A stretch of DNA of 64,000 nucleotides from Pseudoalteromonas sp. DL-6 (GTDB lineage: Bacteria > Pseudomonadota > Gammaproteobacteria > Enterobacterales > Alteromonadaceae). The translations under genes were made by a program, and so were the position numbers. The notes beneath the pieces are model-generated. The model had not been told where the DNA came from. It did no database searches and saw only the letters and a list, made by a program, of their open reading frames with translations. Of the stretch, positions 18,436 through 63,752 are shown one piece after another; the stretch's first letter is position 1; each line of letters starts with the position of its first letter. The DNA is taken from assembly GCF_004328665.1 (NCBI RefSeq), contig NZ_CP019770.1, positions 248,001 through 312,000 on the forward strand, in the 5' to 3' direction.

Positions 18436-18476
18436 TCTAGCTTTTGCTAGGTTCGCTGCCTGAGAAATCAGGCAAG

Positions 18477-18507
18477 GGCTGGTGATTATTTAATCACCGG
18501 CCTTTTT
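18477..18507 (+). terminator. rplL-rpoB attenuator (Rho-independent)
   Basis: GGCTGGTGATT, loop ATTT and AATCACCGGCC form an 11-bp stem with one G-U pair, followed by five T. Position and form correspond to the partial terminator between rplL and rpoB in E. coli, which lowers rpoBC expression relative to the ribosomal proteins. Confidence 0.9.
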
Positions 18508-59419: not shown

Positions 59420-62155
59420 ATGGCTCAGATCCCCGAAAACCCGCTTATTCTTGTTGATGGCTCTTCATATTTGTTTCGTGCTTATCATTCTCCACCTCAT
59501 TTAACTAATTCTAAAGGTGAAGCCACTGGCGCCATTTATGGCGTGGTAAACATGTTGAAAAGTTTGATCAAACAATACGATCCCTCACATATGGTGGTGG
59601 TGTTTGATGCCAAAGGTAAAACTTTTAGAAATGACATGTACAGCGAGTATAAAGCGAATCGTCCGCCAATGCCTGATGATCTGCGTACCCAAATAGCGCC
59701 GCTACATAGCATTATTAAAGCGATGGGCTTTCCATTAATTAGTATTGAAGGTGTAGAAGCCGATGACGTGATTGGTACATTTGCGCGCATTGCTTCTGAG
59801 CAACAACGCCATGTATTAGTATCAACTGGCGATAAAGATATGGCGCAGTTGGTTAATGAGCATGTTACTTTGATCAATACCATGACCGACAGTATTTCAG
59901 ATCCCGACACTGTGGTTGAAAAGTTTGGTGTTGGACCTGAGCTTATTATCGATTATTTAGCCTTAATGGGCGATAAAGTAGATAATATTCCTGGTGTTGA
60001 AGGGTGCGGGCCTAAAACTGCGGTTAAATGGTTACAAAAGTACGGATCGCTTCAAGGCGTAATTGATAATGCTGCTGATATCAAAGGTAAAATAGGTGAA
60101 AAGCTTGCAAAAGCGATTGATCATTTACCATTAAGCTATGAACTTGCCACTATTAAGTGTGATGTGGAGGTTGAATCTGATCTTGATACTTTTAAATTGC
60201 AAACACCGAATAAAGACGAATTAATTGCCTTATACGGTGAGTGTGAATTCCGTCGCTGGTTAGCTGAATTACTAGACAATCCAAAAGATGCTGACACACA
60301 TTTAGCGGTCCCAACCCAAGAGAATGAGTTGCCAAAAGTTGAAGATGCGCACTATGAAACGATTTTAACGCAAGCACAATTTGATGCATTGATAGAGCAG
60401 CTCAATGAAGCTGAGCTATTTGCTTTTGATACTGAAACAACCAGCCTAGAGTATATGAAAGCGCAATTGGTAGGGATGAGTTTCGCAGTAAAAGCTGGGG
60501 AAGCTGCCTACTTACCAATTGCACACGATTACCCAGGCGCACCTGAGCAGCTTAGCCTTGAATTTGTGATGCAAAAGTTAGGGCCTATATTAGCAGATGA
60601 AAATAAAGCTAAAGTTGGTCAAAATTTAAAATATGATAAAAGTGTGCTTGCCAATGCTGGCTATGAATTAAATGGTATTAAGTTTGATACTATGTTGGAG
60701 TCTTATGTTTTTAACAGCGTAGGTACTCGTCATGATATGGACTCATTAGCACTTAAATATTTAGGCCACAAAAATATTAGCTTTGAAGACATTGCTGGTA
60801 AAGGTAAAAAGCAGCTCACGTTCAATCAAATCGAACTTGAAAAAGCGGCGCCTTATGCCGCAGAAGATGCCGATATTACTTTGCGTTTACACCAAGTACT
60901 ATGGCCGAAACTTGAAGCGGATGAAAAGATTAAATCGGTGTTTGAAAATATAGAAATGCCACTAGTAAGCGTTATTTCTGACATTGAGCGCACCGGTGTA
61001 GCGATTGACAGTAATATGTTAGCAGCACATAGCCAACGTTTAGGTGAACGATTACTTGAGCTTGAAAAAGAAGCGTTTGAAATCGCAGGCGAACCGTTTA
61101 ACTTAAGCTCGCCAAAGCAATTACAAGTACTGTTATTTGAAAAACTAGAATTGCCCGTTATCAAAAAAACACCCAAAGGCGCGCCTTCTACAGCAGAAGA
61201 AGTACTGCAAGAATTAGCACACGATTACCCATTGCCTAAAGTGATTATTGAGCATCGCGGTTTATCTAAGCTTAAATCAACTTACACAGATAAATTGCCA
61301 CTGATCGTGAATGAGCAAACCAAGCGTGTGCATACTTCTTATCATCAAGCGGTAACAGCAACGGGTCGATTAAGTTCAAGCGATCCTAACCTACAAAATA
61401 TTCCTATTCGTTCAGAAGAAGGGCGCCGTATTCGTGAAGCCTTTATTGCTGCTGATGGATATAAAATTGTGGCGGCCGATTACAGCCAAATAGAGCTGCG
61501 TATTATGGCGCATCTTTCACAAGATAAAGGGTTGCTCAACGCCTTTGCAAATGGCTTAGATGTGCATAGCGCTACAGCTGCTGAGGTATTTGGAGTTGAG
61601 CTTGAAGAGGTTACATCTGATATGCGCCGTAAAGCTAAAGCCGTTAACTTTGGCTTAATTTATGGCATGTCGGCATTTGGTTTGGCACGTCAACTTGATG
61701 TACCACGCCATGAAGCGCAGCATTATATTGATAAATATTTTGAGCGTTTCCCAGGTGTTTTAGAATACATGGAAACGACCCGTGAAAAAGCAGCAGAAAA
61801 TGGTTACGTAGAAACTATTTTTGGCCGCCGCTTACATTTACCAGAAATAAATGCCCGCAATGGAGCACGCCGCAAAGGCGCTGAGCGCGCAGCAATTAAT
61901 GCCCCTATGCAAGGCACTGCTGCCGATATTATTAAAAAAGCCATGTTAACAGTACATGCATGGGTTAACCAGCAAGCGCCTAATACGGTTAAGCTACTTA
62001 TGCAGGTACACGATGAATTGGTATTTGAGATTAAAACAGAGTGCACTGAGCAATACACTCAGCAAATTTGTGAGCTGATGTCACAAGCGGCACAGCTAGA
62101 TGTACCACTTATAGTTGAAGCTGACGAAGGTGATAACTGGGAACAAGCGCACTAA
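59420..62155 (+). CDS. polA: DNA polymerase I
   Basis: 911 aa from the ATG at 59420 (MAQIPENPLILVDGSSYLF aligns with E. coli); the frame is open upstream to 59396. 5'-3' exonuclease domain (1-~300), 3'-5' exonuclease (about 320-520) with an intact DTETTSL proofreading motif, and the polymerase domain with motif A ADYSQIELR, motif B RRKAKAVNFGLIYG and motif C QVHDELVFE. Works in Okazaki-fragment maturation and repair. Confidence 0.98.
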   Translation: MAQIPENPLILVDGSSYLFRAYHSPPHLTNSKGEATGAIYGVVNMLKSLIKQYDPSHMVVVFDAKGKTFRNDMYSEYKANRPPMPDDLRTQIAPLHSIIKAMGFPLISIEGVEADDVIGTFARIASEQQRHVLVSTGDKDMAQLVNEHVTLINTMTDSISDPDTVVEKFGVGPELIIDYLALMGDKVDNIPGVEGCGPKTAVKWLQKYGSLQGVIDNAADIKGKIGEKLAKAIDHLPLSYELATIKCDVEVESDLDTFKLQTPNKDELIALYGECEFRRWLAELLDNPKDADTHLAVPTQENELPKVEDAHYETILTQAQFDALIEQLNEAELFAFDTETTSLEYMKAQLVGMSFAVKAGEAAYLPIAHDYPGAPEQLSLEFVMQKLGPILADENKAKVGQNLKYDKSVLANAGYELNGIKFDTMLESYVFNSVGTRHDMDSLALKYLGHKNISFEDIAGKGKKQLTFNQIELEKAAPYAAEDADITLRLHQVLWPKLEADEKIKSVFENIEMPLVSVISDIERTGVAIDSNMLAAHSQRLGERLLELEKEAFEIAGEPFNLSSPKQLQVLLFEKLELPVIKKTPKGAPSTAEEVLQELAHDYPLPKVIIEHRGLSKLKSTYTDKLPLIVNEQTKRVHTSYHQAVTATGRLSSSDPNLQNIPIRSEEGRRIREAFIAADGYKIVAADYSQIELRIMAHLSQDKGLLNAFANGLDVHSATAAEVFGVELEEVTSDMRRKAKAVNFGLIYGMSAFGLARQLDVPRHEAQHYIDKYFERFPGVLEYMETTREKAAENGYVETIFGRRLHLPEINARNGARRKGAERAAINAPMQGTAADIIKKAMLTVHAWVNQQAPNTVKLLMQVHDELVFEIKTECTEQYTQQICELMSQAAQLDVPLIVEADEGDNWEQAH

Positions 62156-62214
62156 TTTAGTATGCCAAGGATGCCTTGTCTTAGGTAAACACAACAGTTA
62201 AAAAGAATTATTTA

Positions 62215-62239
62215 AAAGCGCCAATAGGCGCTTTCTTTT
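62215..62239 (+). terminator. polA terminator
   Basis: AAAGCGCC, loop AATA, GGCGCTTT, then CTTTT: an 8-bp stem 60 bp after polA. Confidence 0.88.
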
Positions 62240-62330
62240 AGCTTGCAGGTTAAAAAAAAGTTAAATTAAACAGCAGTTTGTATTAAATCGTTAGAGGTTC
62301 GTCAATTCGCTTCGAATATCGATAATATGC

Positions 62331-62360
62331 TTGTATTTTTACGCTTGCTTTTGGTAAAGT
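62331..62360 (+). promoter_or_regulatory. promoter of candidate small RNA
   Basis: TTGTAT (62331-62336), an 18-bp spacer and TGG-TAAAGT (extended -10; hexamer 62355-62360). Predicted start near 62367. Confidence 0.55.
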
Positions 62361-62366
62361 GCCGCC

Positions 62367-62480
62367 CGTCCTCATCCTGTAGGACATCCTGTTGATGATG
62401 CATCGTAAGATGCAACGTATTGATAGCTTCTCCCCAGTTTGCTATATCGGCCTATCATATATTTGATGGGCCGTTTTTTT
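62367..62480 (+). ncRNA. candidate small RNA in the polA-engB interval (Spot 42 position)
   Basis: Between the polA terminator and yceI, with no ORF, is a second strong terminator: CGGCCTATCA (62448-62457) and TGATGGGCCG (62464-62473) with seven T's. A promoter lies about 110 bp before it. Inside: a TGCATC-GTAA-GATGCA hairpin with a GNRA loop (62399-62414) and a direct repeat CATCCTGT (62373-62380, 62385-62392). Size (~110 nt) and position after polA match Spot 42 (spf), reported in Alteromonadales, but I see no convincing sequence match to enteric Spot 42. It may be a divergent Spot 42 or a different RNA. Confidence 0.6.
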
Positions 62481-62649
62481 AGCTTTACTCCAAAGCGTTA
62501 AATTTATTCTCTAATTGCACTTAGCATTTCAAGTGATACCATCAGTTTACTGGGCGTTTTCTTTTTACCTCAGCGTACTAGTGATTTTCAATTTGACTGA
62601 TCAAAGTATTATTTTTTCGGGTATAAATCTTTTATTTTAGGAGTGCATT

Positions 62650-63237
62650 ATGTTTAAAACGTTAGCCATAGCAGGTTTATCTTTATCATGTTTACTAGTT
62701 TCAAGTGTTGCATCGGCAAACTGGCAGCTACTCAACGACAAAAGCCAATTAAGTTTTGTCTCAATTAAAAAAAATAGCATTGCTGAGGCAAGCCATTTTA
62801 CTCAGTTAACAGGCCAACTGAGTGAACAAGGCCAGTTTAGCGTAAACGTTGATTTAACCTCAGCTGAAACGTTTATTCCTATTCGTAACGAGCGCCTCAG
62901 CAAGATTTTGTTTGAATCTGACACTTTTGCAAATGCAGTATTAACCGCTGACTTATCTGATAAAGTGTCACTTATTAAGCAGCCTGGGCAGTACGTATTA
63001 AAAGGTGTTAGCGCCGAGCTAGACTTTCACGGTCATAAAAAGCCACTTGCAGTTGATGTACTTGTTAGTAGTGCGGCAAACGGTGATTTAAGCGTAGCAT
63101 CATTCACTCCTATTATTATTAATAGCGATGACTTTAAAGTCACCGAAGGGATAATGCAGTTACAAAAATTAGCCGGCTTACCTTCTATTGCCACTGCAGT
63201 ACCGGTTACGTTTGCACTGACCTTTAAAAAACAGTGA
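62650..63237 (+). CDS. YceI family periplasmic protein
   Basis: 195 aa with a signal peptide (cleavage likely after SVASA). The rest fits the YceI lipocalin-like beta-barrel family, which binds polyisoprenoids or other lipids: WQLLNDKSQLSFVSIKK at the start, and paired strands with LKGVSAELDFHGHKKPL. TAGGAG precedes the ATG. The next gene overlaps its stop by four bases (GTGA). Confidence 0.9.
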   Translation: MFKTLAIAGLSLSCLLVSSVASANWQLLNDKSQLSFVSIKKNSIAEASHFTQLTGQLSEQGQFSVNVDLTSAETFIPIRNERLSKILFESDTFANAVLTADLSDKVSLIKQPGQYVLKGVSAELDFHGHKKPLAVDVLVSSAANGDLSVASFTPIIINSDDFKVTEGIMQLQKLAGLPSIATAVPVTFALTFKKQ

Positions 63238-63752
63238 TTTCACTTAACGAACTTAGCAAGCAACTAAGCGAGCCAAGCAAACCTTTTGAACAATGGCAGC
63301 CTGCTCATTGCGGGCAATTGCCACTGTTGGTTGATGAGCAAGGCAAATGGTTTTATGCGGGTAGTGAAATTACCCGCCAGGCTATGGTAAAGCTGTTTGC
63401 TAGTGTGTTGTGTCGCGAAGATGGGCAGTTTTATTTAAAAACGCCAGTAGAGAAAATTGCGATTGAGGTTAAGGATGCGCCATTTATTATTGTAAGTTGG
63501 CATCGTGAGTCGACATCTGACGGCGATGTTATTTGTTGTATTGATAACCTACAACGTACCTGGTTATTAAGTCATGCAGAACCACTTTATATCAATGACT
63601 ACAAAGGCGGCGCAGTGCCTTATATGCAATTACCCCATGGCTGTTTTGCACGAATTGCCAGAAATGTGTTTTATCAGTGGGCTGAAATAGCCGAAGCAGA
63701 TGAGCTCGGCTATTTTATTACTTCCGCGAATGAGCGGTTTTATTTAGGGTAA
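63234..63752 (+). CDS. DUF1285 domain protein
   Basis: 172-aa soluble protein starting at GTG that overlaps the yceI-family stop (GTGA). It has the DUF1285 pattern: CGQLPLLVDEQGKWFYAGSEI, then KLFASVLCREDGQFYLKTPVEK and APFIIVSW, ending in SANERFYLG. Function not established. It abuts the convergent engB with no spacer (stop codons adjacent at 63750-63755). Confidence 0.9.
   Translation: MISLNELSKQLSEPSKPFEQWQPAHCGQLPLLVDEQGKWFYAGSEITRQAMVKLFASVLCREDGQFYLKTPVEKIAIEVKDAPFIIVSWHRESTSDGDVICCIDNLQRTWLLSHAEPLYINDYKGGAVPYMQLPHGCFARIARNVFYQWAEIAEADELGYFITSANERFYLG

Follow-up and report, generated by a model that had tools for sequence, protein, structure and literature searches.

The window, i.e. 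the whole stretch of 64,000 nt that was analysed, contains a polA gene whose stop lies at 62155 and a yceI gene whose start lies at 62650. In the interval, a terminator-like site of polA is followed by a promoter-like site and by a compact RNA with its own terminator (Table 1). An earlier note on this DNA had described a promoter-like element, TTGTAT-18-TAAAGT with TG extension, and the sequence bore this out. The -10 hexamer TAAAGT is located at 62355-62360, and the promoter was read from the sequence as sigma-70-like with an extended -10. It agrees with the consensus at 3/6 and 4/6 positions (7/12 in total) and was not listed by a simple consensus promoter scan of the locus; its -10 region, TTTGnTAn[A/T]GT, was conserved in 70/70 loci of the window's genus. 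The start of the presumed transcript near 62367 was placed from the promoter spacing. When the discriminator was included, the fold z was -4.35 and 0/200 shuffles folded equally well. Two terminator-like sites were found, including that of polA, versus a mean of 0.3 in shuffles. Seven ORFs of 20-37 aa overlap the sRNA locus. In a search of a copy of Rfam 15, the polA-yceI interval had no hit at gathering level, and those up to E 10 were unconvincing. Elsewhere in the window the Rfam P26 RNA (RF00630) was detected at 18443-18503 on the + strand with 54.9 bits. The picture of a candidate sRNA unit standing alone between the polA terminator and yceI, with a promoter, a folded RNA and a strong Rho-independent terminator (stem 62448-62473 followed by seven T), was thus confirmed, as was the GNRA-capped hairpin GCATC-GTAA-GATGC.

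Table 1. Features of the polA-yceI interval in the window.
Feature	Position	Strand	Observation
polA terminator-like site	62215-62234		found in terminator scan
promoter	62331..62360	+	-35-like TTGTAT 62331-62336, 18-nt spacer, extended -10 TGgTAAAGT
discriminator GCCGCCC, G+C-rich	62361..62367	+	precedes presumed start; 96% G+C over 70 genus loci
sRNA gene, presumed transcript ~114 nt	62367..62480	+	matches in 108/108 genus genomes; fold z = -4.32
helix H1 GUCCU/AGGAC, loop CAUCCUGU	62368..62385	+	98.2% of cells paired in genus; double changes at all 5 pairs (family alignment)
core CAUCCUGUUGAUGAUG, mostly unpaired, first seed candidate	62385..62400	+	identical in 70/70 loci
helix H2, GUAA loop	62400..62413	+	CG/UA double changes; 100% of cells paired in genus
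helix H3 AUAGC-loop-GCUAU, loop UUCUCCCCAGUUU, second seed candidate	62423..62445	+	UUCUCCCC in 67/70 loci
intrinsic terminator H4 + U run	62448..62480	+	terminator scan, genus and family alignments

Exactly one match per genome was found throughout the genus, the window's own genome included, and 70 of the 108 loci were read individually. Alignment A1 comprised 57 distinct genus RNAs, with L021 left out and L037 trimmed by hand. In A1, 95.9% of the cells of the four-helix structure were paired versus 88.6% in shuffles, 150 cells were changed on both sides versus 47.9, and the covariation score was 0.321 versus 0.171; none of these values was reached by any of 500 shuffles. Four of five covariation measures on A1 beat all 500 shuffles, and the fifth, further pair types (30 versus 27.1), was reached by 22/500. 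Structures slid along A1 scored 0.060-0.098. Compensatory changes, for which the earlier note had suggested an alignment among genus genomes, were found in three of the four helices. Conservation beyond the terminator, set beforehand as a test, was also present (core 70/70, loop 67/70).

The gene neighbourhood was equally examined in the 70 loci. polA was located within 400 nt upstream of the RNA (90-362 nt) in 52/70 and at 1.3-2.1 kb in 8; it was not found inside the fetched piece for 10/70. yceI lay 3' of the RNA in 64/70, with engB beyond yceI in those 64, and engB was directly downstream of the RNA in 6/70 (L031-L036). In the window, yceI and a 172-aa ORF (62650-63752) separate the sRNA from engB; neither was found in L031-L036, where the sRNA adjoins engB, and in L052 the 172-aa ORF alone is missing.

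Lying between polA and yceI on the same strand, the locus could be a conserved 3'-end or leader element of one of these genes rather than an sRNA gene. However, a terminator-like site closes polA upstream, the RNA has its own conserved -10 motif, it persists in the 6/70 loci where no yceI was found, and its counterparts in relatives have a conserved promoter element upstream. We consider this explanation very unlikely.

CATCCTGT occurs twice in the RNA, at 62373-62380 and 62385-62392, and this repeat had been put forward as a seed. The first copy sits in the H1 loop, where CATCCTGT was found in 50/70 loci only, and it was not seen in the other genera read; on these grounds the repeat was rejected as a paired seed. 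The 16 nt around the second copy (core CATCCTGTTGATGATG) were identical in 70/70 genus loci. Thus the second copy stood up as a constant element, whereas the first copy did not and the repeat itself is not a conserved feature.

The constant parts across the family are a stretch near CCUGUUGAU and the hairpin with the UUCUCCCC loop; in the consensus structure neither the stretch nor the loop is paired. The hairpin is H3, the fourth helix (ATAGC-TTCTCCCCAGTTT-GCTAT), and few parts of the RNA family are as constant as its loop: TTCTCCCC was present in 67/70 genus loci and CTCCCC in 2 more, and L052 alone was without it. H3 hardly varies inside the window's genus, so the genus alignment is uninformative on this helix. 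With a search pattern that fixed the inner three pairs, 190 matches were collected from a wider set that includes related and repeated genomes; the stems were ATAGC/GCTAT in 133, TTAGC/GCTAA in 39 and AAAGC/GCTTT in 1, and the outer pair was broken in 17/190 and the next pair in 1. A loop that stays constant while the outer stem changes suggests a presented seed, and the TTCTCCCC loop, absent from the earlier note, is a candidate for a second seed. In the family alignment, H2 was limited to the window's genus (gaps in the 24 rows from the six further genera), and L175 (family f200) folds a different hairpin where H2 would be. Single-sequence minimum-energy folds missed some helices, namely H1 in L031 and L056 and H3 in L093 and L104.

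R1, the covariance model of A1, matched 69/295 family genomes. At E <= 1.2e-4 there were 61 matches in 7 genera: the window's genus accounted for 16, and the remaining 45 came from g288, g290, g292, g305, g311 and g314. polA and/or engB flanked 19/19 checked of these 45 non-genus loci. The other 8 matches were weak, and the four examined (L073, L123-L125) were without polA or engB nearby. Alishewanella aestuarii, Arsukibacterium perlucidum and Rheinheimera pacifica belong to g288, Rheinheimera tangshanensis to g314, Psychrosphaera saromensis to g305, Algicola sagamiensis to g290 and Shewanella aestuarii to g326 of family f187. The family RNA outside the genus is ~90-104 nt long, lacks H2 and has the order H1 - CCCTGTTGAT - H3 - terminator. 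Most of the family loci that were read contain CCTGTTGAT; L110 and L115 have variants of the core. Length across the family was ~90-128 nt, with the ends as cut here. A 33-member family alignment, which was fitted to the structure and hence leans towards it, gave a covariation of 0.386 versus 0.118 +/- 0.011 in shuffles, and 0/500 shuffles reached it.

A second model, R2, matched 18/247 order genomes. Six matches were located between polA and engB in families f187 and f195 (L132, L137, L138, L139, L140 and L144), and five more came from family genomes G246, G502 and G545, with L129 and L133 by engB and L143 by polA. L131 and L145, which had neither polA nor engB in the piece, were retained for their sequence. 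Two genomes carried two copies of the RNA: in G502 (L129, L143) they were 20.7 kb apart, one by polA and the other by engB, and in G246 (L133, L145) they were 2.4 kb apart, one by engB. The R2 match to Shewanella-type members was weak (23-26 bits), and their membership was assigned because of their place, their promoter element and the TAGCTTCTCCCC hairpin. L165 (f191) and L171 (f196) gave weak R2 matches of 24.2 and 19.5 bits downstream of polA with no Spot 42 match, and are possible distant members. Outside the order, searches with R1 (369 class genomes) and R2 (321) under stricter filters found no match beside polA or engB. Matches with no polA or engB in the piece were dropped as chance matches (L072-L077, L123-L125, L128, L130, L134-L136, L141, L142 and L394-L396). 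L396, from class genome G108, was counted among them; here R2 matched weakly, and the piece contains ATCCTGTTGAT and TTAGCTACCC...GCTAA.

The earlier note had placed the RNA in the Spot 42 position with a body unlike Spot 42, as a fast-diverging homologue or a separate regulator, and had proposed a check with the Spot 42 covariance model (RF00021). With E values up to 10 allowed, RF00021 did not turn up in 62000-62800; in the window's own genome it gave no match at E 0.001, and it matched 0/16 genomes of the window's genus within a search of 295 family genomes. The 5' signature of Spot 42, GTAGGGTA..GAGG (GUAGGGUA..GAGG), was absent in 70/70 genus loci. Position and dissimilar body were both upheld. 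The RNA resembles Spot 42 in its polA-engB neighbourhood (with polA at >400 nt or outside the piece in 18/70 loci), its length of ~110 nt, its own promoter, its intrinsic terminator and its presumed role as a base-pairing regulator. Spot 42 is further known for repression by CRP-cAMP and induction by glucose. Unlike Spot 42, the RNA has no match to the model and another core and loop, and in relatives it is a second gene beside Spot 42.

This last difference was seen in a set of 40 intervals 3' of polA, hand-chosen across the order from 133 genomes with a match. RF00021 matched 16/40 at E <= 0.01, and both RNAs were present in 4/40: L156 and L157 (f187 g326, Shewanella), L170 (f195) and L175 (f200). 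In those four, Spot 42 was found at E <= 3.6e-9 and this RNA by R2 at E 0.0014-0.11. The R2 scores were 21-24 bits in L156, L157 and L175 and 15.7 bits (E 0.11) for the copy in L170, where TAGCTTCTCCCC and the promoter region are readable. Another R2 match in L170, at 195-281, was dropped as this RNA, being Spot 42 itself. Among the family genomes, G603 and G671 are examples in which the models likewise found both RNAs.

Named genomes were then scanned for promoter plus loop with the pattern TTAGAGYAAANACTTYA-N(60-90)-TCTCCCC, which gave 89 stretches, of which 80 were examined (L186-L265). The signature GTAGGGTA[CT].GAGG was located 122-217 nt upstream of the promoter element of this RNA in 70/80 of these loci, so that the sole occupancy of the slot expected of an spf orthologue was not observed. 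The tandem signature was found in 29/30 loci of Shewanella, 22/24 of Rheinheimera, 7/8 of Arsukibacterium, 4/4 of Alishewanella, 3/3 of Alkalimonas, 2/2 of Ferrimonas and 3/4 of MAGs; it was not found in Psychrosphaera (0/3), Algicola (0/1) and 'Marinobacter' (0/1). In three of the ten signature-less loci (L192, L255 and L264) the piece starts within 130 nt of the pattern. The contig of 'Marinobacter nauticus' DP3N21-5 (L255) is likely a mislabel or contamination because it is 85% identical over 4.2 kb to Ferrimonas-like DNA; it was kept among the 80. RF00021 reached gathering level in 4/17 loci searched (L186, L187, L216 and L224). Because RF00021 matched 57/295 family genomes and only 1 was above the cut-off, Spot 42 in Rheinheimera and its kin is taken as a sub-threshold match.

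Because both RNAs occur side by side in one genome, they are separate genes, and the RNA of the window would be spf only if the tandem had come from a duplication, of which no sequence sign was seen. A fast-diverged spf orthologue at the spf locus would account for the shared neighbourhood (polA <=400 nt upstream in 52/70, engB adjacent in 6/70 and beyond yceI in 64), for the similar length and for the finding of no other Spot 42 in the genome. It is contradicted by the model, which was unmatched at the locus, by the signature, found in 0/70 genus loci, and by the relatives that hold both RNAs in tandem. On these three grounds a diverged Spot 42 was ruled out, and we regard it as exceedingly improbable; of the two options left by the earlier note, the separate regulator stood and the homologue fell. 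Loss of spf in the window's genus would be the simplest reading of the sequences. Further small elements with promoter- or terminator-like features were seen after Spot 42 in other families, at 460-630 in L163 and at 560-760 in L161 and L175-L177; the latter four have in common an AGTGCTT string that is followed by a terminator-like hairpin. The polA-engB interval may house yet more sRNAs.

We conclude that the locus is probably a stand-alone gene for a trans-acting sRNA of its own family, whose members in many marine and aquatic relatives lie between polA and engB, downstream of spf. By position, the closest described RNA is VSsrna24. It is reported as an RNA of ~60 nt from Aliivibrio salmonicida, encoded 262 nt 3' of spf, repressed by glucose independently of cAMP and, according to its authors, limited to Vibrionaceae (PMC3295665). 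It is also listed among the RNAs of a second vibrio that differ between growth conditions (PMC13250501). The two RNAs are alike in being a second sRNA between spf and engB, a location seen here in six named tandem genera; the search for spf in the window's genus was negative. In family f201, taken for Vibrionaceae, a CU-rich stretch, TTCTCTCCC or TCTCTCCC, close to TTCTCCCC, precedes a terminator-like hairpin in 5/8 intervals (3 by pattern and 2 by eye). L275, L277, L278, L280 and L179 of f201 have TCTCTCCC before such a hairpin at least ~300 nt after Spot 42, and this is perhaps VSsrna24. It is possible that the RNA of the window is the counterpart of VSsrna24 and works alike, and the shared slot after spf and before engB (PMC3295665) points in this direction. 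However, we hold this to be rather doubtful: VSsrna24 is ~60 nt long versus ~90-128 nt for this RNA as cut, R2 found nothing in the two f201 intervals searched with it (L178 and L179), the TTAGAG promoter element was not found in L275-L280, L178 and L179, a CU-rich octamer may recur by chance, and the restriction to Vibrionaceae stated in the same source (PMC3295665) speaks against it.

The polA-engB interval also holds ersA of Pseudomonas aeruginosa, whose RNA is described as having three stem-loops, with an unstructured domain separating the first from the second (PMC8575079). This interval and a similar plan by description are what would favour ErsA as an orthologue. On the other hand, outside the order neither R1 (369 class genomes) nor R2 (321) had a match next to polA or engB, under stricter filters and in samples that may lack Pseudomonas. 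Orthology with ErsA is unlikely. The ErsA promoter is recognised by sigma-22 (PMC7565897), versus the sigma-70-like reading here. From the genus itself, excerpts on the Csr sRNAs Pf1, Pf2 and Pf3 of Pseudoalteromonas fuliginea give 25, 21 and 9 GGA motifs (PMC9927453, PMC11882849). Unlike these GGA-rich RNAs, the present RNA has a single GGA by sequence reading, and a CsrB-type RNA was ruled out. Hundreds of sRNAs have been predicted by RNA-seq in P. fuliginea, according to one paper on its sRNAs, and this RNA may be among them. Those portions of the P. fuliginea and Shewanella sRNA literature that were available mention no RNA at this locus, and no description of this RNA was found in open-licence literature.

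As a separate trans-acting sRNA, the RNA would be transcribed from its own promoter to its terminator and would bind Hfq at its U-rich 3' end. Its unpaired CCUGUUGAU core and its UUCUCCCC hairpin loop would pair with Shine-Dalgarno regions (complements AUCAACAGG and GGGGAGAA), and such pairing would cover ribosome-binding sites, so that translation would be blocked or the mRNA destabilised. In the window's own genome the pattern GGGGAGA..ATG gave 9 matches, all of which were read, versus 11 for the reversed control; the loop complements were thus not enriched before ATG in this genome. The pattern CAACAGG..ATG gave 69 matches, of which 30 were read, versus 19 for the reversed control, an excess to be read with the fact that CAA CAG is common in coding sequence. 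The best-looking target pieces were located before prpC (L324) and before oadG (L296). Both were rejected as conserved targets: the prpC match was not kept in genus members G012 and G028, and the oadG match was not kept in G012, while in G028 the start of oadG was not found. Further candidate sites were located at selO-, lysA- and GGDEF-like genes, named by sequence reading.

Promoters in the other genera have TTTTAGAGTAAATACTTTAA, or a sequence close to it, 5' of the -10, and TTAGAG.AAA.ACTT was absent in 70/70 genus loci. The promoter of the orthologous sRNA seems to have been rebuilt in the genus, with a G+C-rich discriminator versus TTTTAGAGTAAATACTTTAA in relatives. Such discriminators occur in promoters under growth-rate and ppGpp control. 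By analogy, control of this kind may apply to the present RNA, which we take as a lead only.

A still more speculative scenario is an ancestral two-RNA control module between polA and engB in these gammaproteobacteria, in which Spot 42 and the UUCUCCCC-loop sRNA would answer opposite carbon signals and VSsrna24 would be a shortened Vibrionaceae form; the window's genus would have dropped Spot 42, remade the promoter with its G+C-rich discriminator and added a hairpin. The findings add a widespread sRNA family, unmatched in the Rfam 15 copy searched, to a classic sRNA locus, and they warn that an RNA behind polA should not be named 'Spot 42' from its position. The clear syntenic record makes loss, promoter change and helix change traceable, and genomes with Spot 42 and this RNA offer a natural comparison with a genus in which this RNA was the only one of the two to be found.
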